In this document: one piece after another, positions 3,923 to 24,494 of the stretch
Layout: every line of letters starts with the position of its first letter
Position numbering within the stretch: position 1 is the first letter of the stretch
Virus record (IMG/VR): IMGVR_UViG_3300030101_000961
Coordinates: 1-25,754 of that record
DNA from: a virus
Strand: one strand, 5' to 3'
DNA: 25,754 bases
The notes under the pieces: generated by a model
Told to the model about the DNA's origin: nothing
The model's database searches: none
Seen by the model: the letters and a program-made list of their open reading frames with translations, nothing else
Made by a program: the position numbers and the translations under genes

Positions 3923-4292
3923 ATATGTCAAAGAAACTGATGGACGAAGAAACAATAAGCGAAAAGCAGGCGTTAGAAATAAATCTTTTATTAAAGCCAC
4001 ATCTTCTGGTGCTATTAACAATGCCAAAAGAAATAGGACCAGAATACTTGCAACAAATGCTATTGAAAATGAATTTGGAAGCATACAGGAGTTTTGGGCG
4101 TTCATAGCCAAGCAAGCAAGAACTTCACCAAAAGATCGTGATACGATCAGAGAATATGCTTTTGGAAAAGCACCTGATGTTGTAGAGGATAAACAACAAA
4201 AGGTAAACATAAATATCAAAAATCTATTTACTGGCAATCAAGATGACGATAATACTATAGAATTAGACAGTGATGAAGACTCCAGTTCTTAA
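3897..4292 (+). CDS. Probable terminase small subunit
   Basis: This 131-aa protein lies immediately before, and overlaps, the large terminase gene, the usual place for the DNA-recognition subunit of the packaging motor. The N-terminus is very basic ('RRNNKRKAGVRNKSF'). The core 'ATNAIENEFGSIQEFWAFIA' continues into 'KDRDTIREYAFGKAPDVVE', resembling Bacteroidetes phage small terminases in which a W-x-x-L/I-A helix is followed by a Y-x-Y/F-G-K-P-x-E/D turn. The acidic tail (DDDNTIELDSDEDSSS) may contact the large subunit or nucleotide-bound motor. Subunits of this kind form rings that bind the packaging site. The call rests on position plus weak motif match. Confidence 0.65.
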   Translation: MGRKPKQYKYVKETDGRRNNKRKAGVRNKSFIKATSSGAINNAKRNRTRILATNAIENEFGSIQEFWAFIAKQARTSPKDRDTIREYAFGKAPDVVEDKQQKVNINIKNLFTGNQDDDNTIELDSDEDSSS

Positions 4293-5478
4293 TTCTAAAT
4301 ACAATTCTTTTGGTAACGATACAAGATACTTTGTAATAACAGGTGGTAGAGGGAGTGGTAAATCATTTGCTATAACTACATTTTTAGCGTTTCTAACGTT
4401 TGAACAAGGTCATAAGATACTTTTTACTCGTTATACAATGATAAGTGCTGCCAATTCAATTATACCAGAGTTTTTAGAAAAGCTTGAATTATACGATATT
4501 TTAAATCATTTTAGGATTACTAAGGATGAGATCTTAAACATAAGTACTGGTAGCTCAATAATGTTTAAAGGTATTCGTACATCAGCAGGAAATCAAACTG
4601 CTGCACTAAAGTCGATTAGTGGGATAACTACTTGGGTGCTTGATGAAGCAGAAGAGCTTACAAAGGAAGAAGACTTTGATAAAATAGATCAGTCTGTTAG
4701 GGCGAAGAATAAACCTAATAGGGTTATGATGATTTTAAATCCAGCAACAAAAGAACACTGGATATATCAAAGGTTCTTTGCAGGTAAAGGAGTAAATCCT
4801 GGTAGCAATCTATGGAAAGATAATGTTTCATATATACATACAACATTTAAAGACAATATAGAAAACCTATCAGATTCTTTTCTTTTACAGCTAGAAGACA
4901 TAAGAAGAAGAAGACCAGATAAATATAATCACCAAATACTTGGTGGTTGGATGGAAAAAGCAGAAGGTGTTATATTTACTAACTGGACCATAGGAGAGTT
5001 TAATTCAAATGAAGAATATATATTTGGTCAAGACTTTGGATTTTCGGTAGATCCAACTGTACTTATAAAAACTGCAATCAATAAAGATAAGAAAAAAATT
5101 TGGATTAAGACAATGTATTGTAAAGCTGGTATGTCTACAAAAGAGATAGGAGAAAATAATAGAAGATACGCTGGAGAAGATTTAATTATTTGTGATAGTG
5201 CAGAACCAAGACTTATATCAGAGCTTCAAGAATATTGTAATATAAAACCTACTATTAAACGCAGTGGGTCAATATTGACAGGGATTGCTTTGATACAAGA
5301 TTTTGATATGATAGTAGATCCAGGAAGTACAGAGCTTATAAAAGAACTTAACAATTATGTTTGGCACGAAAGAAATACAAGACCTGTTGCAAGATGGGAC
5401 CATCACTTAGATTCACTTCGTTATTGTTTGCAATACTTTTTAGCGAACGCAAACAAAGGTGTTTATGTTATAAGATAA
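4273..5478 (+). CDS. terL: Terminase large subunit (packaging ATPase and nuclease)
   Basis: This is the motor that pumps DNA into the prohead and cuts it. The ATPase domain has Walker A GGRGSGKS at residues 24-31 and Walker B 'TTWVLDEAEE' at 119-128 with the catalytic Glu after Asp. The RNase H-like nuclease domain shows acidic residues in 'FGQDFGFSVDPT' (Asp254), 'IICDSAEP' (Asp308) and 'DHHLDSLRY' (Asp376/Asp380). At 401 aa it is of normal length for the Terminase_3 type. I start at ATG 4273; the GTG directly before it adds one residue. It overlaps the small subunit gene by 20 bases. The usual downstream partner, the portal gene, is not here but 19 kb away at 24889. Confidence 0.95.
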   Translation: MKTPVLNSKYNSFGNDTRYFVITGGRGSGKSFAITTFLAFLTFEQGHKILFTRYTMISAANSIIPEFLEKLELYDILNHFRITKDEILNISTGSSIMFKGIRTSAGNQTAALKSISGITTWVLDEAEELTKEEDFDKIDQSVRAKNKPNRVMMILNPATKEHWIYQRFFAGKGVNPGSNLWKDNVSYIHTTFKDNIENLSDSFLLQLEDIRRRRPDKYNHQILGGWMEKAEGVIFTNWTIGEFNSNEEYIFGQDFGFSVDPTVLIKTAINKDKKKIWIKTMYCKAGMSTKEIGENNRRYAGEDLIICDSAEPRLISELQEYCNIKPTIKRSGSILTGIALIQDFDMIVDPGSTELIKELNNYVWHERNTRPVARWDHHLDSLRYCLQYFLANANKGVYVIR

Positions 5479-5481
5479 TTC

Positions 5482-5684
5482 TTAAACATAGTAGGTACAT
5501 TCTTAAACGCAGTAGGTTTAAAACTTGATCACTATATAAACCCAAGTGAATAAGTAAACAAAGAATACACTAGAAAAAGTAAAAAGGACTCCAAGCCCAA
5601 CAGATTCAAAATACATTCTATTTGGATACTTAGTCATTAAACGCAGTAGGTTATTAAATGATCTAATCATTAAACGCAGTAGGT
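5482..5684 (+). repeat. Direct repeat cluster A (TTAAAC-AT/GC-AGTAGGT, four copies)
   Basis: Four same-direction copies of a 15-bp core lie at 5482-5496 (AT variant), 5503-5517, 5637-5651 and 5670-5684 (all GC variant). The last two are embedded in a perfect 22-bp repeat (5634-5655 and 5667-5688). Start-to-start spacings are 21, 134 and 33 bp; 21 and 33 are near whole helical turns, as for protein-binding iterons or operators. The same core recurs in cluster B at 7517-7604. The copies fall in different reading frames, so they are not a coding repeat. Confidence 0.85.
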
Positions 5685-5827
5685 TATTTACAAACCACCT
5701 CGTCCACCAACTAAAATTTTTAATCATATTTGTTTTTTATAATGCTAATATTTAGATAGTGTTTTATATATTTTTTTATTTTACACTTGGATATTAAAAA
5801 AGATTTTAGTAAAAAGTTTGTCAATTA

Positions 5828-5860
5828 TTTGTTAATTAAATTTATTTTTATATATATTTG
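5828..5860 (+). promoter_or_regulatory. Bacteroidetes-type promoter for the small-gene block
   Basis: TTTG at 5828-5831 is followed after 21 bases by TATATTTG at 5853-5860, matching the Bacteroidetes -33/-7 pattern (TTTG or TTG, 17-23 bases, TAnnTTTG). Transcription should begin near 5867, giving a leader of roughly 20 bases before the ATG at 5886. The segment after the -7 box (GTATAAACA) is nearly the same as at the promoter at 7699-7728. Confidence 0.7.
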
Positions 5861-5885
5861 TATAAACATTTTTAAAACAATTATT

Positions 5886-6053
5886 ATGAAATACATAAAT
5901 TATAAATTTAATAACGAATTAGGAACTGAAACATTAGATTCAGCAGAAACTTTAAGAGAAGCAAATATTCTACTTAGAGAATACGAGATGTCCGATCCAT
6001 TTGGAGATTATTGGATAAGTAACAGAGCTTGTAAAAACTATAAAAATAAATAA
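5886..6053 (+). CDS. Hypothetical 55-aa protein
   Basis: First gene behind the promoter at 5828-5860. The frame is open upstream to a TTG at 5787, but the promoter lies inside that extension, so the ATG at 5886 in a typical 'attATGaaa' context is preferred. The product ('LREANILLREYEMSDPFGDY' in the middle, 'WISNRACKNYKNK' at the end) looks like a small helical protein with a Trp-containing basic tail. No family is recognised. The next gene starts one base after the stop. Confidence 0.65.
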   Translation: MKYINYKFNNELGTETLDSAETLREANILLREYEMSDPFGDYWISNRACKNYKNK

Positions 6054-6054
6054 T

Positions 6055-6198
6055 ATGAAAATAGATATAAGAACAAAACAAACTTTATACATTGAAATTA
6101 ATGATTATGTATATTATATTGATGATAGTACAAATGAACAAATCATTGATGTATGGCACAAAAATTCAGGAGCAACAATAGATAATTTATATAAATAA
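6055..6198 (+). CDS. Hypothetical 47-aa protein
   Basis: The ATG lies one base after the preceding stop, in the tightly packed block. The product has alternating hydrophobic and Tyr residues ('TLYIEINDYVYYIDDSTNEQ', then 'IIDVWHKNSGATIDNLYK') suggesting a small beta-sheet protein, similar in style to the 42-aa product at 6804-6932. No function is known to me. Confidence 0.6.
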   Translation: MKIDIRTKQTLYIEINDYVYYIDDSTNEQIIDVWHKNSGATIDNLYK

Positions 6199-6199
6199 T

Positions 6200-6322
6200 A
6201 TGAAACATTTTTTATACACAAAGCTAGTAAATATGAGAACTCGATTATCATTTGAAAAAGATGATAAGAAAAGATCAGAGCTACAAAAACAAATAATAAG
6301 ATTAGAAAAACAAATATGGTAA
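6200..6322 (+). CDS. Hypothetical basic 40-aa protein
   Basis: It starts one base after the previous stop and ends two bases before the next gene. The product is short and strongly charged, ending in a probable coiled-coil helix ('KKRSELQKQIIRLEKQIW'). Packing and the start context support it; its size makes it uncertain. Function unknown. Confidence 0.5.
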   Translation: MKHFLYTKLVNMRTRLSFEKDDKKRSELQKQIIRLEKQIW

Positions 6323-6324
6323 TT

Positions 6325-6801
6325 ATGAAAACACAAACACAAACACAAAAAGAATTAATAGCAGTATTCGACTTGTACGACTATTACGATGGTGAAACTA
6401 AATATTTTATTGAACACAAAGATCAATTTCTGGAATTAATAGGAGAAGAAAACAAAAATGTTAATGATATAGAGGATTATGATGTAGAAGATTATTTTTA
6501 TAAAAATCATTGGCACGCTGAATGGTATCAGGAAACTTTTGAAGAAGAAATAAAATCTGAATTTAAAAATCATTTAGGTAAAGATGTTTTTATAGATGGT
6601 AGAAATGTTGGTTGGCAAAATTTATCTGGAGAAATATCATTTACTTTAAATGATCCAATGGATATATTTTATGAAATTGCATACACAGAGACAGAATTAA
6701 CTTTTTATTTATGGAAGATTAATAATAATGAATATGAAGTTAAAATGAGTCATCACGATTCACCAACAGGAGAATTTTATGATATAACTATAAAAGATTA
6801 A
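6325..6801 (+). CDS. Hypothetical acidic protein with SHHDSPTGE motif, 158 aa
   Basis: I use the ATG at 6325; an in-frame ATG three codons upstream (6316) lies inside the previous gene. The start is marked by a hexanucleotide run (ACACAA three times) coding for TQTQTQ. The product is acidic and aromatic with segments 'RNVGWQNLSGEISFTLNDP' and 'EVKMSHHDSPTGEFYDI'. I recall the GW-x-N-L-S-G and S-H-H-D-S-P-T-G-E elements from uncharacterised proteins of Bacteroidetes phages and mobile elements. The paired His and Asp could bind metal, but no fold is assigned. It is the largest gene of this block. Confidence 0.75.
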   Translation: MKTQTQTQKELIAVFDLYDYYDGETKYFIEHKDQFLELIGEENKNVNDIEDYDVEDYFYKNHWHAEWYQETFEEEIKSEFKNHLGKDVFIDGRNVGWQNLSGEISFTLNDPMDIFYEIAYTETELTFYLWKINNNEYEVKMSHHDSPTGEFYDITIKD

Positions 6802-6803
6802 TT

Positions 6804-6932
6804 ATGAAATTTATAAATACAATTAATAAAATACTTTATACACTTGAACAGGATAATAAGTATTATATAACAGATCAACAAAGATTTATGAAAAGGATAA
6901 CAGAAAAAAGTTATCACGAACTAAATAAATAA
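6804..6932 (+). CDS. Hypothetical 42-aa protein
   Basis: It follows the 158-aa gene after two bases, with the same 'attATGaaa' start. The product ('KFINTINKILYTLEQDNKYY', then 'ITDQQRFMKRITEKSYHEL') looks like a small strand-turn-helix protein and shares with the 47-aa product at 6055 a 'LYxxExxxxYYIxD' pattern (TLYIEINDYVYYIDD versus ILYTLEQDNKYYITD), hinting at a distant duplication. Function unknown. Confidence 0.6.
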   Translation: MKFINTINKILYTLEQDNKYYITDQQRFMKRITEKSYHELNK

Positions 6933-6936
6933 AACT

Positions 6937-7224
6937 ATGGAAAAAGTAAAACATTGTTCATTAGATTGGACAGGATTAGATGTTCACGCCTGGGTAGAAT
7001 ATCAAATAGAATTAGGAGATCTTAAAACAGATTTTCTAATAAAGGATTATGATAACTTGACTAAAAGTCAAAGAAATACACTATTAAATATGTGTTCAGA
7101 AGCTATTGAATATAGTGAAGATAGTATTATATCTCATATAAACGATTGTATTGCAATTTATGTAAGTGATAACCTTAATTCATTAATTAAAGATTTAATT
7201 AAACATAATATTGTAACTAAATAA
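6937..7224 (+). CDS. Hypothetical acidic 95-aa protein
   Basis: The ATG is preceded by an A/T leader that is repeated exactly before the gene at 7233 (23-base identity, 6921-6943 versus 7217-7239). The product begins 'MEKVKHCSLDWTGLDVHAWV' and continues as a mainly helical acidic protein. A Cys-rich or enzyme motif is not evident. It lies in the middle of the block of small genes, probably transcribed from 5828-5860. Function unknown. Confidence 0.65.
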   Translation: MEKVKHCSLDWTGLDVHAWVEYQIELGDLKTDFLIKDYDNLTKSQRNTLLNMCSEAIEYSEDSIISHINDCIAIYVSDNLNSLIKDLIKHNIVTK

Positions 7225-7232
7225 ATAAAACT

Positions 7233-7403
7233 ATGGAAATAAATAAAATAAATACTTGGGGAGTGTTTGTCGAAAATGATGAACTTGAAACTTATGAAAT
7301 TAAGTTACCACCAAAATTAGCTGAAAAAGTTTGGGACTTTATAGATCAATCTAATAAAAACGATTTGATAGGAAATAATACAAATGGAAATTTAAATTGG
7401 TAA
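7233..7403 (+). CDS. Hypothetical 56-aa protein
   Basis: The leader and first codons repeat those of the preceding gene. The product starts 'MEINKINTWGVFVENDELET' and has a helix 'PPKLAEKVWDFIDQSNKND'; composition suggests a soluble acidic protein. Function unknown. It is separated by four bases from the next gene. Confidence 0.6.
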   Translation: MEINKINTWGVFVENDELETYEIKLPPKLAEKVWDFIDQSNKNDLIGNNTNGNLNW

Positions 7404-7407
7404 AATT

Positions 7408-7539
7408 ATGGAAACAAAATTTAATGTCAGTAAAGAAACATTAACACAAATGATTGAAAACTATGAATACAGAATTGATAGTTTACAAAGGAAGATCAAA
7501 CAATTAGAAGAGATCGTTAAACATTATAGGTTGCCCTAA
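7408..7539 (+). CDS. Hypothetical coiled-coil peptide, 43 aa
   Basis: Last gene of the block. Most of the product is one predicted amphipathic helix with leucine/isoleucine heptads ('YEYRIDSLQRKIKQLEEIVK'), so a small coiled-coil oligomer is likely. Its last eight codons contain a degenerate copy of the direct repeat (7517-7531). This may mean the gene's 3' end was generated by recombination at a repeat, or that a binding site overlaps the gene. Function unknown. Confidence 0.6.
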   Translation: METKFNVSKETLTQMIENYEYRIDSLQRKIKQLEEIVKHYRLP

Positions 7540-7604
7540 ATTCTTAAACATAGTAGGTTAATTCTTAAACATAGTAGGTATAGCAATCATTAAACATAGT
7601 AGGT
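7517..7604 (+). repeat. Direct repeat cluster B (TTAAAC-AT-AGTAGGT)
   Basis: Three exact AT-variant cores lie at 7544-7558, 7565-7579 and 7590-7604, preceded by a degenerate one at 7517-7531 (TATAGG replaces AGTAGG). Start spacings are 27, 21 and 25 bp. The first two exact copies sit in a perfect 20-bp repeat (7539-7558 and 7560-7579). The third lies in the loop of the terminator hairpin at 7578-7620. All copies share the direction of cluster A. Confidence 0.85.
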
Positions 7605-7625
7605 TTTTTGGTTGCTATGCTTTTT
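7578..7625 (+). terminator. Rho-independent terminator with a repeat copy in its loop
   Basis: GTATAGCAA (7578-7586) pairs with TTGCTATGC (7612-7620), nine pairs with one G-U, and is followed by five T. The 25-base loop consists almost entirely of a repeat copy (7590-7604). It would end the transcript of the small-gene block before the promoter at 7699. Confidence 0.65.
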
Positions 7626-7698
7626 CCTGGTCTGTATGAAAAGGATATATTTCACAAAACAATAATAAGAAATAAATTAAAATAATTGACATTTATTG

Positions 7699-7728
7699 TT
7701 GATTAATTAAAAATTATTATTATATTTG
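7699..7728 (+). promoter_or_regulatory. Bacteroidetes-type promoter
   Basis: TTG at 7699-7701, 19 bases, then TATATTTG at 7721-7728: a canonical Bacteroidetes vegetative promoter, just downstream of repeat cluster B and its terminator. It would drive the membrane peptide at 7752 and the gene at 7867. A host-type promoter suggests early expression. Confidence 0.75.
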
Positions 7729-7751
7729 TGTAAACAATTAAATTAATAACT

Positions 7752-7847
7752 ATGAAAAAATTTATACATATTACAGAAAAATATATTACTCCATTTATTT
7801 TAATATTTGGCTTTTTATATTTCTTTTTTCACTTTATAACATTATAA
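7752..7847 (+). CDS. Small single-span membrane peptide, 31 aa
   Basis: The first ATG behind the promoter gives a peptide with a basic start (MKKFIHITEKY) and one hydrophobic segment (residues about 12-31, rich in Phe, Ile, Leu). This is a typical single transmembrane helix with inside-facing positive charge. Phage-encoded peptides of this type can be membrane effectors, superinfection-exclusion factors or holin-like proteins; nothing in the sequence decides between these. The position behind a strong promoter is the main support. Confidence 0.55.
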   Translation: MKKFIHITEKYITPFILIFGFLYFFFHFITL

Positions 7848-7866
7848 ACTAAAAACAAATAACATT

Positions 7867-8514
7867 ATGAAAAATAAAAACATTACAGAAAAACAAAAAG
7901 AACTAATTAAAAAATTTGAGTCAAGATCAATGAATATAAATACATTAGTGTATGATATGTTAACAGAATCAACAGGAACTGATATGTGCGATTCTGGTGG
8001 TGATGATAATAGACATTGGCAAAAGAACCAAAAAAGATCAATGGAAGATTTTATTAATGATGAAATTGAAACCATTGATAAAGATGATGAATGGTATTAC
8101 AGAACAATAAGTTTATTTCATTATTTAACTGATGGGTTGGAAATAGATTCCATTTGCCAGGAATTTAATAACATAAATAAAGATCCTGAGAAATGGGATT
8201 CACATTTATGGGGAGTATGTTACAAAGCATACAAACATTTAAGATATTATTATTCTCCTAAAATACAAGGTGAAATTTACAATTCTTATAATTGGGATAG
8301 TGATTTATCACAGGATATTCAGTACCAATTTTTATATATTGATAATGCTTGTTATGTGCTTATACAAATACATAATGGAGCAGATGTTAGAGGTGGATAT
8401 ACTTCAGCAAAATTATTTAAATGTAAGTATGATCAAACAATTAACATTGATATAATAACTAAAATGGATCAATATGAATTGGAGGAATTATATAGAGATG
8501 ATATACCCTCATAA
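7867..8514 (+). CDS. Hypothetical 215-aa protein
   Basis: It starts 19 bases after the membrane peptide and shares its promoter. The N-terminal half is charged and helical, with 'TGTDMCDSGGDDNRHWQKNQ' at about residues 37-56. The C-terminal half ends in a conserved-looking beta segment 'ACYVLIQIHNGADVRGGYTS' near residues 160-180. I recall the 'HNGADVRGGYT' element from uncharacterised phage and mobile-element proteins but know no function. The gene is followed by two strong terminators, so this is a self-contained two-gene unit between the packaging and virion modules, a place where accessory genes are common. Confidence 0.75.
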   Translation: MKNKNITEKQKELIKKFESRSMNINTLVYDMLTESTGTDMCDSGGDDNRHWQKNQKRSMEDFINDEIETIDKDDEWYYRTISLFHYLTDGLEIDSICQEFNNINKDPEKWDSHLWGVCYKAYKHLRYYYSPKIQGEIYNSYNWDSDLSQDIQYQFLYIDNACYVLIQIHNGADVRGGYTSAKLFKCKYDQTINIDIITKMDQYELEELYRDDIPS

Positions 8515-8582
8515 ACAACACTTAAATAGCATTTAAAATACCTTTTTTCATTAGTTAATAATTAGGTTAATTAGTTTGAAGA

Positions 8583-8608
8583 ACAGCTCAGAAATGGGCT
8601 GTTTTTTT
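8583..8608 (+). terminator. Rho-independent terminator, first of a tandem pair
   Basis: ACAGCTC (8583-8589) pairs with GGGCTGT (8596-8602), seven pairs with one U-G, a 6-base loop and seven T. It ends the two-gene unit at 7752-8514. Confidence 0.85.
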
Positions 8609-8624
8609 ATTGCAATAATTTTAT

Positions 8625-8656
8625 AACTATCTGATAATTACAGGTAGTTTTTTTTT
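8625..8656 (+). terminator. Rho-independent terminator, second of a tandem pair
   Basis: AACTATCTG (8625-8633) pairs with CAGGTAGTT (8641-8649), nine pairs with one wobble, a 7-base loop, and a run of nine T (8648-8656). With the one just upstream it strongly insulates the virion operon from upstream transcription. Confidence 0.85.
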
Positions 8657-8693
8657 GTATATAAAAATCTTTTCTTTTTTCTACTGGTTATTA

Positions 8694-8881
8694 AATGTAA
8701 AACATACTTTACATTGAACTGAATAAGTCAATTCAGATATTAAACGCAAAAAGCAGGTAATTATTGTTGAGTAGATCAAAGCAGAAAAATCAACGCGTTT
8801 TGCATTCTGCTGTAGGTGAGTAGTTCACTTAAGGAAATTCAAGCAGGTATAAAAAAAGCTCTGAAAAAGTAATCAGAGCTT
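8694..8881. other. Hairpin-rich intergenic stretch; candidate structured RNA or origin
   Basis: No gene is seen here. Inverted repeats follow one another: 8694-8701/8708-8715 (8 bp, perfect), 8719-8724/8731-8736 (6 bp), 8767-8770/8776-8779 and 8816-8819/8825-8828. That last pair consists of two 4-bp stems carrying near-identical GTAGA/GTAGT loops. Then come 8781-8786/8805-8810 (enclosing the palindrome AACGCGTT) and 8856-8864/8873-8881 (9 bp, perfect). AAGCAGGTA occurs twice (8751, 8841). The last hairpin has seven A before it and no T run after it, so it reads as a terminator only for the minus strand. Structure in AT-rich DNA can arise by chance, but this density is unlike the rest of the window. 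Confidence 0.45.
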
Positions 8882-8894
8882 AAACTAAACAAAT

Positions 8895-8978
8895 ATGAAA
8901 AATATTATTTACCCATTAAATACAATTATCCTAAATCTCTATATATACATTCAAAGATATAAAATTCTGTTAGAATAA
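8895..8978 (+). CDS. Possible 27-aa peptide
   Basis: The ATG is in the same A/T-rich context (aaatATGaaa) used by the other small genes, and the frame runs 27 codons to TAA. The product ('MKNIIYPLNTIILNLYIYIQ' plus a basic end) is hydrophobic and could be membrane-associated. No promoter is evident directly upstream. It may be spurious. Confidence 0.3.
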   Translation: MKNIIYPLNTIILNLYIYIQRYKILLE

Positions 8979-9052
8979 ATAACCTTATATCTAATTAACT
9001 ATGTTTTTTATTTTTGTTGTATATTACATTAGCAACAATAAAATATATGATA

Positions 9053-9063: not shown

Positions 9064-9780
9064 ATGAGTAAAACATTCACCCTAAGCATCCCAAAAGAGT
9101 TATCTGGAATATCTCTTAAACAGTATCAGAAGTATATAAAAACTGTAAAGGTAGAACAAGGTAAAGAACCAACACAAGAAGAAGTAGATTTTGCTAATCT
9201 GAAACTATTAGAATGTTTTTGTGATATAAGTTTAAAACAAGCATACGAATTACCACTGACTGAATTTAGTGGCATCATACATCACATAGCTGAACTATTC
9301 AAAGAGGACACACCATTGCAAAGAACATTTGAGATGACAGACCCAAAAGGTCAAACAGTGAAGTTTGGTTTTATTCCTAAGCTTGATGATATATCTTTAG
9401 GTGAATTTATTGATTTAGATAAATACATATCTGACTGGCAAGAGATGCACAAAGCATTAGCTGTATTATACAGACCAGTTGTATTTGAGAAAAAAGAATT
9501 ATACCTGATAGAGGATTATGATGGGAGCGATAAATACTCTGATGTTATGTTAGACGCACCTGTAAGTGTAGCTTTAGGTGCAACGGTTTTTTTTTACCGT
9601 TTAGGCAGCGAGTTGTCGAAACATATGATGGTTTATTTGGAGAATCAATTGAAGGAGGACTCAACGCTTCAGCAAACTTTGGAGCAAAATGGGGTTGGTA
9701 TCAATCAATTTACGGACTTGCTCAAGGCGACCCAACAAAATTTAAAGACGTTACAAAACTTTCCTTATTTCAATGCTTGA
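9064..9780 (+). CDS. Tail assembly chaperone, short form (G-like)
   Basis: ATG 9064 is chosen; an in-frame ATG at 9001 would add 21 hydrophobic residues with no sense as part of a cytoplasmic protein. The 238-aa product has a helical N-terminal domain and the segment 'PKLDDISLGEFIDLDKYISD', then 'ALAVLYRPV' (about residues 106-140), which I recall from uncharacterised flavobacterial phage proteins next to tail genes. The decisive evidence is downstream: a run of nine T at residues 175-177 opens a -1 frame ending exactly at the next gene. The last 61 codons overlap that second frame and show a shift in leucine codons from TTA/CTT to mostly TTG. Tail chaperones of this kind coat the tape measure during tail assembly and are not kept in the virion. 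Confidence 0.7.
   Translation: MSKTFTLSIPKELSGISLKQYQKYIKTVKVEQGKEPTQEEVDFANLKLLECFCDISLKQAYELPLTEFSGIIHHIAELFKEDTPLQRTFEMTDPKGQTVKFGFIPKLDDISLGEFIDLDKYISDWQEMHKALAVLYRPVVFEKKELYLIEDYDGSDKYSDVMLDAPVSVALGATVFFYRLGSELSKHMMVYLENQLKEDSTLQQTLEQNGVGINQFTDLLKATQQNLKTLQNFPYFNA
9587..9595 (+). promoter_or_regulatory. Programmed -1 ribosomal frameshift site (nine T)
   Basis: The codons GTT TTT TTT TAC form the slippery pattern X XXY YYZ (T TTT TTT), on which both tRNAs can re-pair after a one-base backward slip. After slipping, translation continues with TTA at 9594-9596 in a frame open for 84 codons. No strong downstream stem or pseudoknot was worked out. Confidence 0.7.
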
Positions 9781-9848
9781 CTTGGCTAGAGTTTGAAAAA
9801 GAGAAAAATGAACTAGAAAGAAAAATGATAAAACAAAATACAAAATGA
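9594..9848 (+). CDS. Tail assembly chaperone -1 frameshift extension (GT-like)
   Basis: This frame has no suitable start codon and would be missed by start-to-stop gene callers. Reached by a -1 slip after Phe177 of the 9064 gene, it adds 84 residues, giving a fusion of about 261 aa. Its sequence is protein-like, with segments 'NFGAKWGWYQSIYGLAQGDP', 'TKFKDVTKLSLFQCLTWLEF' and a charged end 'EKEKNELERKMIKQ'. It closely resembles what I recall as the C-terminal part of flavobacterial tail proteins (F-G-x-K-W-G-W-Y/x-Q-S...L-A-x-G-D...V-T-K-L...CL-x-x-L-x-F-E-K-E-K). The TGA (9846-9848) overlaps the next gene's ATG (9845) as ATGA, the junction used by other genes here. In lambda the equivalent GT form links the tape measure to tail tube protein. 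Confidence 0.75.
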   Translation, partial: LPFRQRVVETYDGLFGESIEGGLNASANFGAKWGWYQSIYGLAQGDPTKFKDVTKLSLFQCLTWLEFEKEKNELERKMIKQNTK

Positions 9849-10306
9849 TACAAGTATATTCAATATTAGACAAAATAAAAACTATCATAAGATCTAACGG
9901 TATAACTAAAACAGTAACTACAGGAGATATACTTGAGGTTGATCTAAACAAAACAACTATATTTCCTTTATGTCATATTGTATTTGGCAATGTTACATTT
10001 ACAGATAGAATGGCAACAGCTTCATTACAACTATTATGTTTAGACATAGTAGACTATACAAAAGTAAAACAAACAGAAGATATGATGTTTGGTAATGACA
10101 ACTTACAAGACGTATTGAATACACAATTAGCTGTTATAAATCATTTACAACAAAACTTAAGAAGAGGTGATGCTTACTCGGATAAATTTCAATTAACTAC
10201 TAATGTGACAGCAGAACCAATGTTAGACAAATATGAAAATCAACTTGCTGGTTGGGCAATGACTATTGACATTGAAGTACCTACTAATGAATTATCTATT
10301 TGCTAA
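9845..10306 (+). CDS. Tail-module protein, possibly tail completion/terminator
   Basis: This 153-aa protein starts in the ATGA overlap with the chaperone extension. Features are 'SNGITKTVTTGDILEVDLNK', 'IFPLCHIVFGNVTFTD', 'DVLNTQLAVINHLQQNLRRG' and a C-terminal strand pair 'LAGWAMTIDIEVPTNELSIC'. I recall this family as conserved and unnamed in Bacteroidetes phages, next to HK97-gp10-like genes. The size, alpha/beta character and place suggest a tail terminator or head-tail completion role, but no motif proves this. The stop shares a base with the next start (TAATG). Confidence 0.55.
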   Translation: MIQVYSILDKIKTIIRSNGITKTVTTGDILEVDLNKTTIFPLCHIVFGNVTFTDRMATASLQLLCLDIVDYTKVKQTEDMMFGNDNLQDVLNTQLAVINHLQQNLRRGDAYSDKFQLTTNVTAEPMLDKYENQLAGWAMTIDIEVPTNELSIC

Positions 10307-10782
10307 TGGTCTATACATTTACAGCTGAAGCCTTAAACAGAATACGTAAAAAATTAACTACTGAAATAAAGAATCAGATAGATCAGAAAAAACTTAATGC
10401 AACAAGAAAATTAAGAAATAGTGTCAGAGGTACTGTTTATGCAAGCACAAAAAGTATCACACTAGACATCTTTGCAGCTGATTATTTTGAATCTATAGAA
10501 AAAGGTAGAAAACCTGGCAAAAGACCACCTTATAGTAAAATAGAACAATGGGCAGCTGCCAAAGGTTTACAACCATTAAACAAACAAAACAGCAAAGTCA
10601 AAATGATAAAGTCAATACAAGATGCTATTGCTACAAGAGGTACTATAAAAAGATTTGGGTATCAAGGTGCAAACATAATAGATTTTGTAGATCAAAAATA
10701 TAAAGATGAAATAACACAAGAAATAAAAGAAGGTTATTTAAAAGACTTACAATCAGAAATAAATACAGATGGCAGTAAATAA
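10306..10782 (+). CDS. HK97 gp10-like head-tail connection / tail completion protein
   Basis: The start at ATG 10306 overlaps the previous stop by one base; an upstream TTG is not needed. The hallmark is 'AADYFESIEKGRKPGKRPPY', continuing 'SKIEQWAAAKGL' at about residues 58-88. This is the A-x-Y-x-x-x-x-E-x-G-R-x-P-G-K-x-P-P...I-x-x-W-x-x-x-K-G motif of HK97-gp10/virion-morphogenesis proteins that complete the head-tail joint. The N-terminal third is helical and basic. It is 158 aa, normal for the family. It overlaps the next gene by 14 bases. The family assignment is good; the exact site in the virion is inferred from relatives. Confidence 0.7.
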   Translation: MVYTFTAEALNRIRKKLTTEIKNQIDQKKLNATRKLRNSVRGTVYASTKSITLDIFAADYFESIEKGRKPGKRPPYSKIEQWAAAKGLQPLNKQNSKVKMIKSIQDAIATRGTIKRFGYQGANIIDFVDQKYKDEITQEIKEGYLKDLQSEINTDGSK

Positions 10783-18184: not shown

Positions 18185-18330
18185 TGATTAAATTAATAAT
18201 AGAATTACTTAAGACAGATAATTTTTATGGAGTTAATCCTTATATAGATATTGCTAAAGGAAAGTACAAAGCTCCTTTAACAATAACAGAAGCCAAAGAA
18301 GTAATTAAACGCAGATGGTATGGAAGATAA
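18184..18330 (+). CDS. Small 48-aa tail-module protein
   Basis: The ATG overlaps the preceding stop (TAATG) and the gene runs 11 bases into the tape measure gene. The product is 'MIKLIIELLKTDNFYGVNPY' followed by a basic end 'EVIKRRWYGR'. It is tightly placed between hub and tape measure, so it is probably real. Its last codons include a sequence two mismatches from the GC-variant direct repeat (18305-18319), which I take as chance coding similarity. Function unknown. Confidence 0.55.
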   Translation: MIKLIIELLKTDNFYGVNPYIDIAKGKYKAPLTITEAKEVIKRRWYGR

Positions 18331-20227
18331 TAAAAGGATAATATATACTATAGAAATAAACGATCAAGGTAAGATTAAAATAGATAATGTTACTAAAGGT
18401 TTTGAAAAAGCTTCTGGAGCAGTAAAAAAACTCAATCAAGATCTTCTCACTCAAGGTGAGATAATGGAGGATAATGCTAAGAAGAATGAGAATATGATTG
18501 ACAAAACAGGATTAGCAGGTGCTACTCTTGTTGAACTTGGTCGTACTATTTCTGATTCTAACTATGGTCTTCGAGCTATGGCTAACAACATATCTCAATT
18601 ATCCACGTTATTCATTACGCTTATAACAACTTCTGGTGGTCTAACAAAAGGTTTTGGTCAGTTGCTAAAAGTAGCTATGGGACCAGTTGGTTTAATCGTA
18701 GCTTTTCAAGGTATTATAGCATTATTTGAAAGAGCAGATATGCAAGCATCAAAACTTGAGAGATCAACAAATGCTTTAACAGATGCACAAGCTAAGGCAG
18801 GAGTTGAACTTAAAATGTTAAGAAAAGCTATAAATGATGGTACATTTAGTCAAGAAGAACTTGAAACAGTAATCACCAGAGTAAATGATGAATATGATGA
18901 TTTAAATTTACGAGTTGGAGATAATGCAAGGTTAACTGATGATTCTGCTTTAGCTATTGACAATAAAATACTTTCGTTGGAAAAGTTAGCTATTGCAAAT
19001 GCAATTAATACAGAAGCAGAAAAATTATACTCAAAACAATTAGACATTGATTTAAGAAAAGAAAAAGCTTTAGAGGAAGCAAGAATCAAGCAAGGAAATG
19101 ATAGAGTGTTTAGACAGACATCATTTGGAACTACAGTAGCAAGAACAGATGAACAAACTGAAGCAAGAAGACAAAAAAGAATCAAAGCTGTAGAAGATGA
19201 ATTTAATAAAGAACAAGAAAAGCTTGATGAGGAATTTAAAACACTAAGAAAGGTAGCAGATCAAAATGATTACTATACAGAGACATTTGTAAATAATAGT
19301 AAAACAAGAACTAAATCTACAAAAGACGAAGAGAAAGAAAGATTAAAGTTTGCTACAGATGTTGAAGACGCTTTAGCTATAAGTCAACAACAACAATTTG
19401 AACTTGAAAGACAAAGACTTTCCGATCATTATGACGCTTTAATAAAACAAACTAAAGAAAATGGAGATAGTACATTGGCTTTAGAAATAGCAAAATTTTC
19501 TGCTTTAAATCAATTAGATAACGAGGAGTTAGAAAGATTACAGCAAGTCCAAGATAAGAAAGACGCTATAGCAGAAAGAGAAACTTTAAGGGATATAAGA
19601 ATTGCACAGGCTAAAATAAGACTTAAACAGCAAGAGTTAAAAACTGAACAACAAATAGATTTAGCAAGAGTTGGTTTTGCTAAACAAATAGCAGGTATAT
19701 TCAAAAGTATTGCAGGAGAAGGAACAGCTCTTGCAAAAGCAGGTTTAGTTATAGAAAAGGGTGCTGCAATAGCAGATATTATAATAAAAGCACAACAAAG
19801 TATTGCTACACAAACAGCAGCATCATCAGCTTATGCTTTACAAACACAAGCAGCTTACGCTTCATTACCTGTTGCAGGTGTAGGTATAGCTGCAAGTTTA
19901 ATAGCAAAAAATAAAATAGCATTAGCTAAAAATATAGCACAAACTAAAATAGGTGCAGGTTTATCTATAGCTCAAATATTAGCTACATCTTTAGCGTCAA
20001 AAGGATCAGGAATACAAGCACCTTCAGCTGGTACAACACCGACTCCATCAGCACCACAAATACAAGCTCCTGCATTTAATGTAGTAGGTGCTACACAAAC
20101 AAGTCAGTTAGCACAGACAATTGCAGGTGCAGAAGATAGACCTGTAAAAGCATTTGTTGTAGCGTCAGACGTAACAACAGCACAGGAACTTGAACGCAGT
20201 ACGATTGAAGGAGCATCACTTGGATAA
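18320..20227 (+). CDS. Tail tape measure protein
   Basis: The 635-aa product is almost wholly helical: charged coiled coils (residues about 145-460, rich in Glu, Lys, Gln and Arg), a hydrophobic segment near 90-135 ('LSTLFITLIT', 'VAMGPVGLIVAFQGIIALF') and an Ala-rich region near 460-560 that can cross or perturb a membrane. The C-terminus ('PAFNVVGATQTSQLAQTIAG', then 'PVKAFVVASDVTTAQELERS') is the end I recall for Bacteroidetes phage tape measures. Tape measures set tail length at about 0.15 nm per residue, which would give roughly 95 nm, and are ejected ahead of DNA. The length fits a siphovirus. Confidence 0.85.
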   Translation: MEDNKRIIYTIEINDQGKIKIDNVTKGFEKASGAVKKLNQDLLTQGEIMEDNAKKNENMIDKTGLAGATLVELGRTISDSNYGLRAMANNISQLSTLFITLITTSGGLTKGFGQLLKVAMGPVGLIVAFQGIIALFERADMQASKLERSTNALTDAQAKAGVELKMLRKAINDGTFSQEELETVITRVNDEYDDLNLRVGDNARLTDDSALAIDNKILSLEKLAIANAINTEAEKLYSKQLDIDLRKEKALEEARIKQGNDRVFRQTSFGTTVARTDEQTEARRQKRIKAVEDEFNKEQEKLDEEFKTLRKVADQNDYYTETFVNNSKTRTKSTKDEEKERLKFATDVEDALAISQQQQFELERQRLSDHYDALIKQTKENGDSTLALEIAKFSALNQLDNEELERLQQVQDKKDAIAERETLRDIRIAQAKIRLKQQELKTEQQIDLARVGFAKQIAGIFKSIAGEGTALAKAGLVIEKGAAIADIIIKAQQSIATQTAASSAYALQTQAAYASLPVAGVGIAASLIAKNKIALAKNIAQTKIGAGLSIAQILATSLASKGSGIQAPSAGTTPTPSAPQIQAPAFNVVGATQTSQLAQTIAGAEDRPVKAFVVASDVTTAQELERSTIEGASLG

Positions 20228-20261: not shown

Positions 20262-21773
20262 ATGGAAAAGATTATAGAACTAATCATAGACGATCAAAAT
20301 GAAATTAGTGGTATTCAAGCAATATCAATAGTTGAAAACCCAGCTATAGAAGAAGATTTTATAGCACTTAAAGAACATAAAGAGGTAAGACTTGCAGAGG
20401 TTGATGCAGAGAAAAGAATATTGATGGGTCCTGCTCTTATTCCAAACAAAAAGATATTTAGAAAGGGAGCAGATGATGACCACAATTATTACATATATTT
20501 TTCAGAAGATACTGTAAGAAAAGCATCTGAATTATTCTTTATAAAAAATAAACATCAAAACTCTACATTTGAACATACTTTTGATTTAAAAGATATGTCA
20601 GTTGTAGAATCTTGGCTTATAGAAGATCCAAAGAAAGATAAAGCTGCTGCTTATGGATTTGATCTACCAAAAGGAACTTGGATGGTTTCTATGAAAGTCT
20701 TAAATGATAATGTATGGCAAGCAGTAAAAGAAGGAGAAGTAAAAGGTTTTTCTATAGAAGGATACTTTGCTGATGGACTAGAAAGACCTAAAGAAAGTAT
20801 TAAAGAAGAAATAGACGAACTAAACGCAGAATATGAATTAAGAGAAGTTCTTGCTGCACTAACAGAAGAAGTAGAATTAGAATCTTACGGAGATTATCCA
20901 GAGTCTGCAAAAAACAATGCAATACGAGGTATTAAATATAATAAGGCTGTTAATAATAAATGTGCTACTGCTGTTGGTAAAACAAGAGCAAGACAATTAG
21001 AAAGAGGAGAAAACTTTACATTACCAACTCTTAAACGCATATACTCATTTTTATCTAGGGCAGAAACTTATTATAAAGAAGGAGATAATGAAGCTTGTGG
21101 AACTATATCATATTTATTATGGGGTGGTAAATCTATGTTTAACTGGGTAGAATCTAAACTTAGAGGATTAGATGAGTTATCTGTAGATTTATATTCTGAA
21201 AAAGTAAATGATGATTTTGCAATAATTATGGATAGACTTGCATATGCTTCCAAAGAACAAGCAGAAAAAATAGCAGGAGATATTGGATGTGAAGGCATAC
21301 ACGAACACGAGTTTGAAAATCAGACTTGGTATATGCCTTGTAAGCAACACGCACTTGCAGAAGTTGGACCAAGAGGTGGTATAAGAAAATCACCAAAAGC
21401 ACCAGCATCAGACACACCTAATAGAAACCCTAAAGGTAAGGGTACAGCTAGGGGTACAGCTAAGGGTAAAAGAGGAGCAAAAGTATCTGCAAAAGATAGA
21501 AAGACATTACAGAAAAAAGCTGACGACTTTAACAAAAGATATAAAGAAAAATTAGGTTATGGTGTTACAGTCGGTATGTTAGCTTCGGTCTTCCAAAGAG
21601 GTCTTGGTGCATTTAACAGGAGTAGCTCTCCAAGAGTAAATAGTCCTTCTCAATGGGCATTTGCACGAGTCAATGCGTTTTTGTATTTAGTGAAGAACGG
21701 AAGACCACAAAATGCTAAATACGTTACTGACAACGACATTCTTCCCTCTAAACATCCAAAGTCAAGTAAATGA
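20262..21773 (+). CDS. XkdF-like prohead protease fused to three extra phage modules
   Basis: Residues about 1-170 fit the XkdF-like serine protease family (Peptidase_S78_2). They contain 'ILMGPALIPNKKIFR', 'YYIYFSEDTV', a His at 105 (STFEHTF), 'VVESWLI', 'LPKGTWMVSMKV' and the probable catalytic Ser164 (KGFSIEGYF). Such proteases trim scaffold and capsid during head maturation. Three modules follow. Residues about 205-300 have 'DYPESAKNNAIRGIKYN' and 'LWGGKSMFNWVESKL'. Residues about 330-365 have Cys343, His347, His349, Cys360 and His363 in a likely metal-binding arrangement. Residues about 365-500 have 'EVGPRGGIRKSPKAP', then a DUF5824-like 'VFQRGLGAF...SQWAFARVNAFL'. At 503 aa it is much longer than a bare protease. 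It begins just after a GTTATTTAATT element and precedes the scaffold-like gene. Confidence 0.8.
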   Translation: MEKIIELIIDDQNEISGIQAISIVENPAIEEDFIALKEHKEVRLAEVDAEKRILMGPALIPNKKIFRKGADDDHNYYIYFSEDTVRKASELFFIKNKHQNSTFEHTFDLKDMSVVESWLIEDPKKDKAAAYGFDLPKGTWMVSMKVLNDNVWQAVKEGEVKGFSIEGYFADGLERPKESIKEEIDELNAEYELREVLAALTEEVELESYGDYPESAKNNAIRGIKYNKAVNNKCATAVGKTRARQLERGENFTLPTLKRIYSFLSRAETYYKEGDNEACGTISYLLWGGKSMFNWVESKLRGLDELSVDLYSEKVNDDFAIIMDRLAYASKEQAEKIAGDIGCEGIHEHEFENQTWYMPCKQHALAEVGPRGGIRKSPKAPASDTPNRNPKGKGTARGTAKGKRGAKVSAKDRKTLQKKADDFNKRYKEKLGYGVTVGMLASVFQRGLGAFNRSSSPRVNSPSQWAFARVNAFLYLVKNGRPQNAKYVTDNDILPSKHPKSSK

Positions 21774-24464: not shown

Positions 24465-24494
24465 AAAAGAGGGCATTTTGTCCTCTTTTTTTTT
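24465..24494 (+). terminator. Rho-independent terminator after the tail tube gene
   Basis: AAAAGAGG (24465-24472) pairs with CCTCTTTT (24482-24489), eight perfect pairs, a 9-base loop that can pair further at its base, and a run of nine T (24486-24494). Confidence 0.88.

Follow-up and report, generated by a model that had tools for sequence, protein, structure and literature searches.

In a virus record of 25.7 kb, a gene of the tail module carries a run of nine T at which two overlapping reading frames meet. Both frames are under selection, the run is invariant in being at least nine T long wherever the two frames occur together, and the domain encoded by the second frame has homologues within proteins made from a single ORF. 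From these features we infer that one gene would give rise to two proteins with their first 177 residues in common. Most transcripts would be translated in the zero frame to a protein of 238 aa; in a fraction, a one-base slip at the nine T would lead into 84 codons of the -1 frame and produce a fusion of 261 aa (177 + 84). That a slip occurs at the T run is, on the comparative evidence set out below, almost certain. The fuller account, in which RNA polymerase would make the slip and the products would be a tail assembly chaperone pair of the G/GT type, is favoured to a modest degree.

The window, which is the whole stretch of 25,754 nucleotides analysed, encodes the zero-frame ORF on the plus strand at 9064..9780, a putative G-like short product that matches phrog_32199 (E 3.3e-15). 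An in-frame ATG is also present at 9001, and in relatives the zero frame starts near the position of 9064. The slip site occupies 9587..9595 of the same strand and is read in the zero frame as GTT TTT TTT TAC, with GTT at 9586; this frame ends at TGA 9778-9780. The -1 frame is open from 9543 to 9845 and stops at TGA 9846-9848. Its tail, the predicted C-terminal domain of the fusion, covers 9594..9848 (+), that is 84 codons and the TGA, and past the slip reads LPFRQRVV...NFGAKWGWYQSIYGLAQGDP..., with the conserved consensus ..FGxKWGWYqSiYaLAxGDxxxFexiTKLxxHxCLtxLxFEKEKNELE... The zero-frame extension of 61 codons lies over this tail and makes 9595..9780 (+) a double-coded region. The tail stop overlaps the ATG at 9845 of the next gene as ATGA, an overlap type kept in many relatives. 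The sequence-only reading from which the analysis started had placed the T run, both frames, their stops and the ATGA overlap, and every one of these coordinates agrees with the sequence. It had also described the leucine codons past the slip as mostly TTG; a rise is indeed seen, from 1 of 20 before the slip to 5 of 10 after it, although this amounts to only half. An Rfam search of the window gave no match. The T run is flanked in this clade as AACGGT(T7)ACCGTT (9582-9601), a possible hairpin with a T loop; a hairpin as an essential element was rejected, since most other lineages lack the AACGGT and ACCGTT flanks. Further T9 runs occur in the window, one at 8648-8656, upstream of the slip gene and outside the larger listed ORFs, and one at 24486 within a terminator-like element at 24465-24494 (a hairpin of 11 pairs with T9) that separates the putative major tail gene from its downstream neighbour. 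The latter run is also found in a relative (G401, position 20341).

Among annotated phages, relatives of the zero frame were limited to the Nonlabens phages P12024S and P12024L, at 28% identity; the -1 tail used alone as query led to the same place in these phages and in the matching -1 phase, at only E = 6. A scan of viral contigs yielded 74 relatives and further scans added more. When an alignment of the tail was used, the -1 frame was found encoded in more than 589 viral contigs (80 of these were kept), so that the arrangement is not a rare one. A scan of genome contigs gave no match with a single protein as query and six with an alignment. Bacterial matches include Flagellimonas, Galbibacter, Winogradskyella, and others, and are probably prophages or phage contigs. 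Altogether, 269 phage and prophage loci with both domains were counted, falling into 53 clusters at less than 70% identity and 21 at less than 50%; since similarity searches gathered these relatives and they have ancestors in common, the loci are not independent events, and the number of clusters gives a fairer picture. A search of open-licence papers found no earlier report of this slip-gene family.

The T run is the most constant feature of these loci. It measures T9 in 223, T10 in 45, and T12 in one of the 269, the tail always lies in the -1 frame, and neither T7 or T8 nor an in-frame version of the site occurs in any of them. At least nine T are present in all 53 clusters and in all 21 of the more divergent ones, and the -1 frame remains open for 81-90 codons after the run. 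The run occupies all three codon phases: phase 1 in most loci (GTT TTT TTT TAC), phase 0 in L079 (TTT TTT TTT CTG) and L269 (TTT TTT TTT GCT), and phase 2 in L171 and L173 (GGT TTT TTT TTG). A T lost from one flank is regained on the other, and the length never falls below nine. Given the amino acids and codon usage, the probability of such a run averages about 0.23 per lineage, and the joint log10 probability over the 53 clusters is about -35 when the clusters are treated as independent; the nine-T slip arrangement is far beyond chance. Only one other run of at least nine T was counted across 743 kb of ORFs; it lies upstream of a gene in L095, in what is likely a non-coding 5' extension. Loci without the pair are cut at the site, belong to single-ORF relatives, or, in the case of L074, carry a deletion. 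This deletion (3380-3440 of L074) spans the T run and unlinks the tail domain from the first frame, and may be real or an assembly artefact.

Selection on both frames was examined in pairs of related sequences. Before the slip, divergence at the three codon positions is 0.107/0.067/0.325, the pattern of zero-frame coding; in the part encoding only the tail it is 0.081/0.22/0.081, with its peak at the third position of the -1 frame, and in the overlap 0.105/0.175/0.164. The tail-only part has a dN/dS of 0.175, indicating purifying selection on the -1 tail. Synonymous divergence is 0.50 before the slip, 0.37 in the tail-only part, and 0.25 and 0.21 in the overlap, a reduction that the sequence-only reading had proposed to look for. 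Past the slip, the zero frame is open for 57.6 codons, compared with 11.7 expected when tails are recoded with random synonymous codons, and it exceeds 95% of its own simulations in 176 of 207 relatives. The zero-frame extension is thus also selected to stay open, leaving some 60 codons double-coded; the reason may lie in the protein sequence that it encodes or in carrying translation as far as the next gene. A deliberate closing of the +1 frame after the run was considered and rejected, as stops there match the expectation from the amino acids. Conservation and selection argue strongly for the hidden -1 frame reached at the nine-T run, as had been suggested; homologues exist, and in none of them is the frame broken.

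Two simpler explanations of the arrangement can be weighed against these data. The -1 ORF could be a gene in its own right, overlapping the first and started independently, as in the annotation of the Nonlabens phages, where a 55-aa ORF in the -1 frame is given as a gene of its own. In the window, this ORF has no ATG, GTG or TTG before 9777, so that its conserved part cannot be started independently and must be reached by slippage; no start of any kind precedes the WGW motif in 130 of 208 unique relatives and no ATG in 202 of 208, and conservation of the tail starts directly at the T run, all of which makes a separate gene highly improbable. Less credible still is a sequencing or assembly error splitting one true ORF, even though T runs are error-prone and the tail domain of relatives is also found in single-ORF proteins. 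The same frame relation recurs in 269 records, whose sources include numerous separate metagenomes, genomes of Flavobacteriia, and two phage isolates; it holds at T9, T10, and T12 alike, and selection keeps the zero frame open beyond the run as well.

Given a slip, RNA polymerase is probably its agent. The enzyme would add one U on the nine-T template, giving a share of mRNAs with ten U, and standard translation of these would read V-F-F-L-P-F. The threshold of transcriptional slippage has been placed at nine A or T (PMC1088944; PMC5009743), and at Tn with n>8 (PMC3711429). Here the run at the frame transition has a minimum of exactly nine, and such runs are avoided in other coding sequence, the L095 case being the only one in the 743 kb. 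A lambda-type translational slip had been assumed at first; the -1 relation of the frames holds, whereas the strict minimum of nine T, kept in three phases as the flanking codons change, fits slippage by RNA polymerase better than by the ribosome. The encoded residues, hydrophobic (V/L/I/F) and Y/W/L, could account for some of the flanking T's. A ribosomal -1 programmed frameshift, in which two Phe-tRNAs slip in tandem on U UUU UUU in the manner of lambda G/GT or of other phage tail genes, would yield the same fusion through the same junction and carries a substantial minority of the weight. Each site has T TTT TTT, of the heptamer form X XXY YYZ, in frame; the G/GT pairs described to date rely on ribosomal slips (PMC5009743), a frameshift of 6-7% has been reported for a phage TAC cluster (PMC3711429), and F. 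johnsoniae possesses the programmed frameshift of prfB (PMC8710568). A ribosomal slip on T TTT TTT needs only seven T, however, yet T7 and T8 occur at 0 of 269 sites. The other in-frame heptamers of these ORFs are nearly all T7 (33 T7 and two T8, besides the L095 case), a comparison biased by the avoidance of runs of nine or more T elsewhere. An SD-like 5-mer lies upstream of the slip site in 16 of 42 cases, compared with about 10% of control windows, but it is patchy, most lineages being without it, and it falls on a conserved Leu-Gly motif. No downstream RNA structure was detected (mean z -0.18 and 0.02), and an alternative slippery heptamer is present in no lineage.

AlphaFold2 models reached a pLDDT of 82 for the zero-frame protein and 70 for the tail, which is all helical. 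A search of PDB sequences with the zero-frame protein returned nothing useful, and neither did a fold search of the PDB. In the viral structure library BFVD, the zero-frame model matched 32 phage proteins at E<=1e-3, none of them with a function in its name. Several BFVD proteins of 226-267 aa (A0A516L5A8, A0A6J5SVK3, A0A6J7WDG4, A0A6J5N0W0, A0A6J5MY57, and A0A6J5N3F3) match the zero-frame model and also show a weak match to the tail model, which points to single-ORF versions of the pair. By sequence, a weaker homologue of the tail domain was also identified in single ORFs of Galbibacter (L169), of another Flavobacteriaceae genome (L172), and of the viral contigs L174 and L175, and its alignment with the L169/L172/L175 set is well supported (hhalign probability 95, E 2.8e-8). 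Gp16 of phage phi46:1 groups with these single-ORF tail-domain proteins and lies at the position of the slip gene. Homology of the N-terminal part to the single-ORF relatives was not supported (hhalign probability 1.9).

The slip gene lies in the same module as the terminase large subunit (TerL), encoded upstream at 4270..5478 (+; Pfam Terminase_3, E 4.9e-32). It is followed by a gene for a protein of 153 aa (9845..10306, +; phrog_30964), perhaps the tail terminator, and by one of 160 aa (10300..10782, +; phrog_29822), perhaps HK97 gp10-like as judged by eye, in a conserved synteny; genes of both types also follow the slip gene in prophages. A probable tape measure protein (TMP) is encoded downstream at 18320..20227 (+); it has no family match in Pfam or PHROG and was recognized by its position and sequence character, its relative order being that of phi46:1 gp21. 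In phi46:1 the order is terminase, gp16, two small genes, two structural genes, and TMP, with four genes between gp16 and TMP. A complete-looking relative of 36 kb carries TerL, the slip gene, phrog_30964-type and phrog_29822-type genes, large tail genes, and a putative TMP, followed by a protease, the capsid, a putative major tail protein, and a probable portal, where the TMP, major tail, and portal labels were given by position and by eye. No other slip-expressed or chaperone candidate was seen in this relative, including the interval between the major tail protein and TMP. Several small genes separate terminase and slip gene in the window (5518-9000), whereas the two are adjacent in the Nonlabens phages and phi46:1. 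At 20262-21773 the window encodes an unusual composite, in which DUF3721 and a less strongly matched DUF5824 come after a prohead protease domain of the XkdF-like kind (Peptidase_S78_2).

Gene order and the slip-expressed pair agree with the name tail assembly chaperone (TAC) proposed from the sequence; family models do not add to it, as the Pfam and NCBIfam TAC models gave no match to the pair, Pfam matches to the -1 tails were one-off and weak, and the PHROG match has no known function. Because gene order is its basis and family models give no match, the chaperone role is one that we infer, and it is likely rather than firm. The pair would most likely be of the G/GT type, the long form being the minor partner with an extra domain. 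In 269 of 269 pairs the second frame lies at -1 with its tail open, so that a shift late in the first ORF would extend the product, as in G/GT; the slip gene is not directly upstream of TMP, which lies about 8.5 kb downstream. Frameshift-made C-terminal extensions occur in some capsid and tail-tube proteins, and the slip pair could instead be another tail or neck component extended in this way. This is the less probable assignment, favoured by the want of any TAC family match and by relatives in which the slip gene directly follows terminase and does not touch TMP. Speaking for a chaperone are the location of the slip gene inside the TerL-to-TMP tail module and the only structural match with a named function, a weak one to the annotated tail assembly chaperone A0A8S5V8Z8 (E 0.16, probability 0.87). 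It is also consistent with a chaperone that, in phi46:1, MS/MS virion notes are given for gp19-gp21 and not for gp16.

Slip-expressed tail chaperone pairs are usually seen as ribosomal, the heptamer varying from case to case. In the present family, a single homopolymer is retained by hundreds of phages, and its minimum length equals the reported threshold of RNA-polymerase slippage. If the proposed mechanism is true, a structural ratio in phage assembly would be fixed by RNA polymerase instead of by the ribosome, and this in hosts where ribosomes rely little on Shine-Dalgarno pairing. The broader proposal concerns a large group of phages, so far undescribed, mostly from aquatic sources and probably infecting flavobacteria. 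That these set the ratio of a tail-assembly protein pair by RNA-polymerase slippage on a conserved run of nine T, in place of ribosomal frameshifting, while some 60 codons are selected in both frames, stands evenly balanced. Annotation can be corrected as well, since the -1 domain is at present either overlooked or listed as a small gene of its own, and about 60 codons are double-coded.

Compared with known systems, the arrangement is closest to lambda gpG/gpGT and its HK97-like relatives, with which it shares a common N-terminus, a -1 shift late in the first ORF, a place in the tail module, and an extended long form, here deduced from DNA alone. It differs in its run of nine or more T, where lambda G/GT slips on a GGGAAAG-type heptamer, in the absence of any detected profile similarity, in its distance of about 8.5 kb from TMP, and in a double-coded region of about 60 codons selected in both frames. 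Runs of nine U/T or A are shared with the transcriptional slippage sites of Shigella mxiE and Thermus thermophilus dnaX. The long product of mxiE arises when one base is added within a U run, which fuses two frames that overlap (PMC1088944). These are cellular or plasmid genes, whereas the present case is a phage tail-module gene found across hundreds of phages, in which slippage is predicted. The Nonlabens phages P12024S and P12024L (P12024S_38/_39) have a homologous zero frame, a -1 tail, and T9 in the same phase, but their zero-frame extension is only 25 codons long and they are annotated with two hypothetical genes and no frameshift. Finally, phi46:1 gp16 and the L169, L172, and L175 proteins share the gene position, with terminase before and two small genes after, and the homologous C-terminal tail domain, but are encoded by a single ORF of about 176-187 aa with no T run and with the middle part apparently missing.
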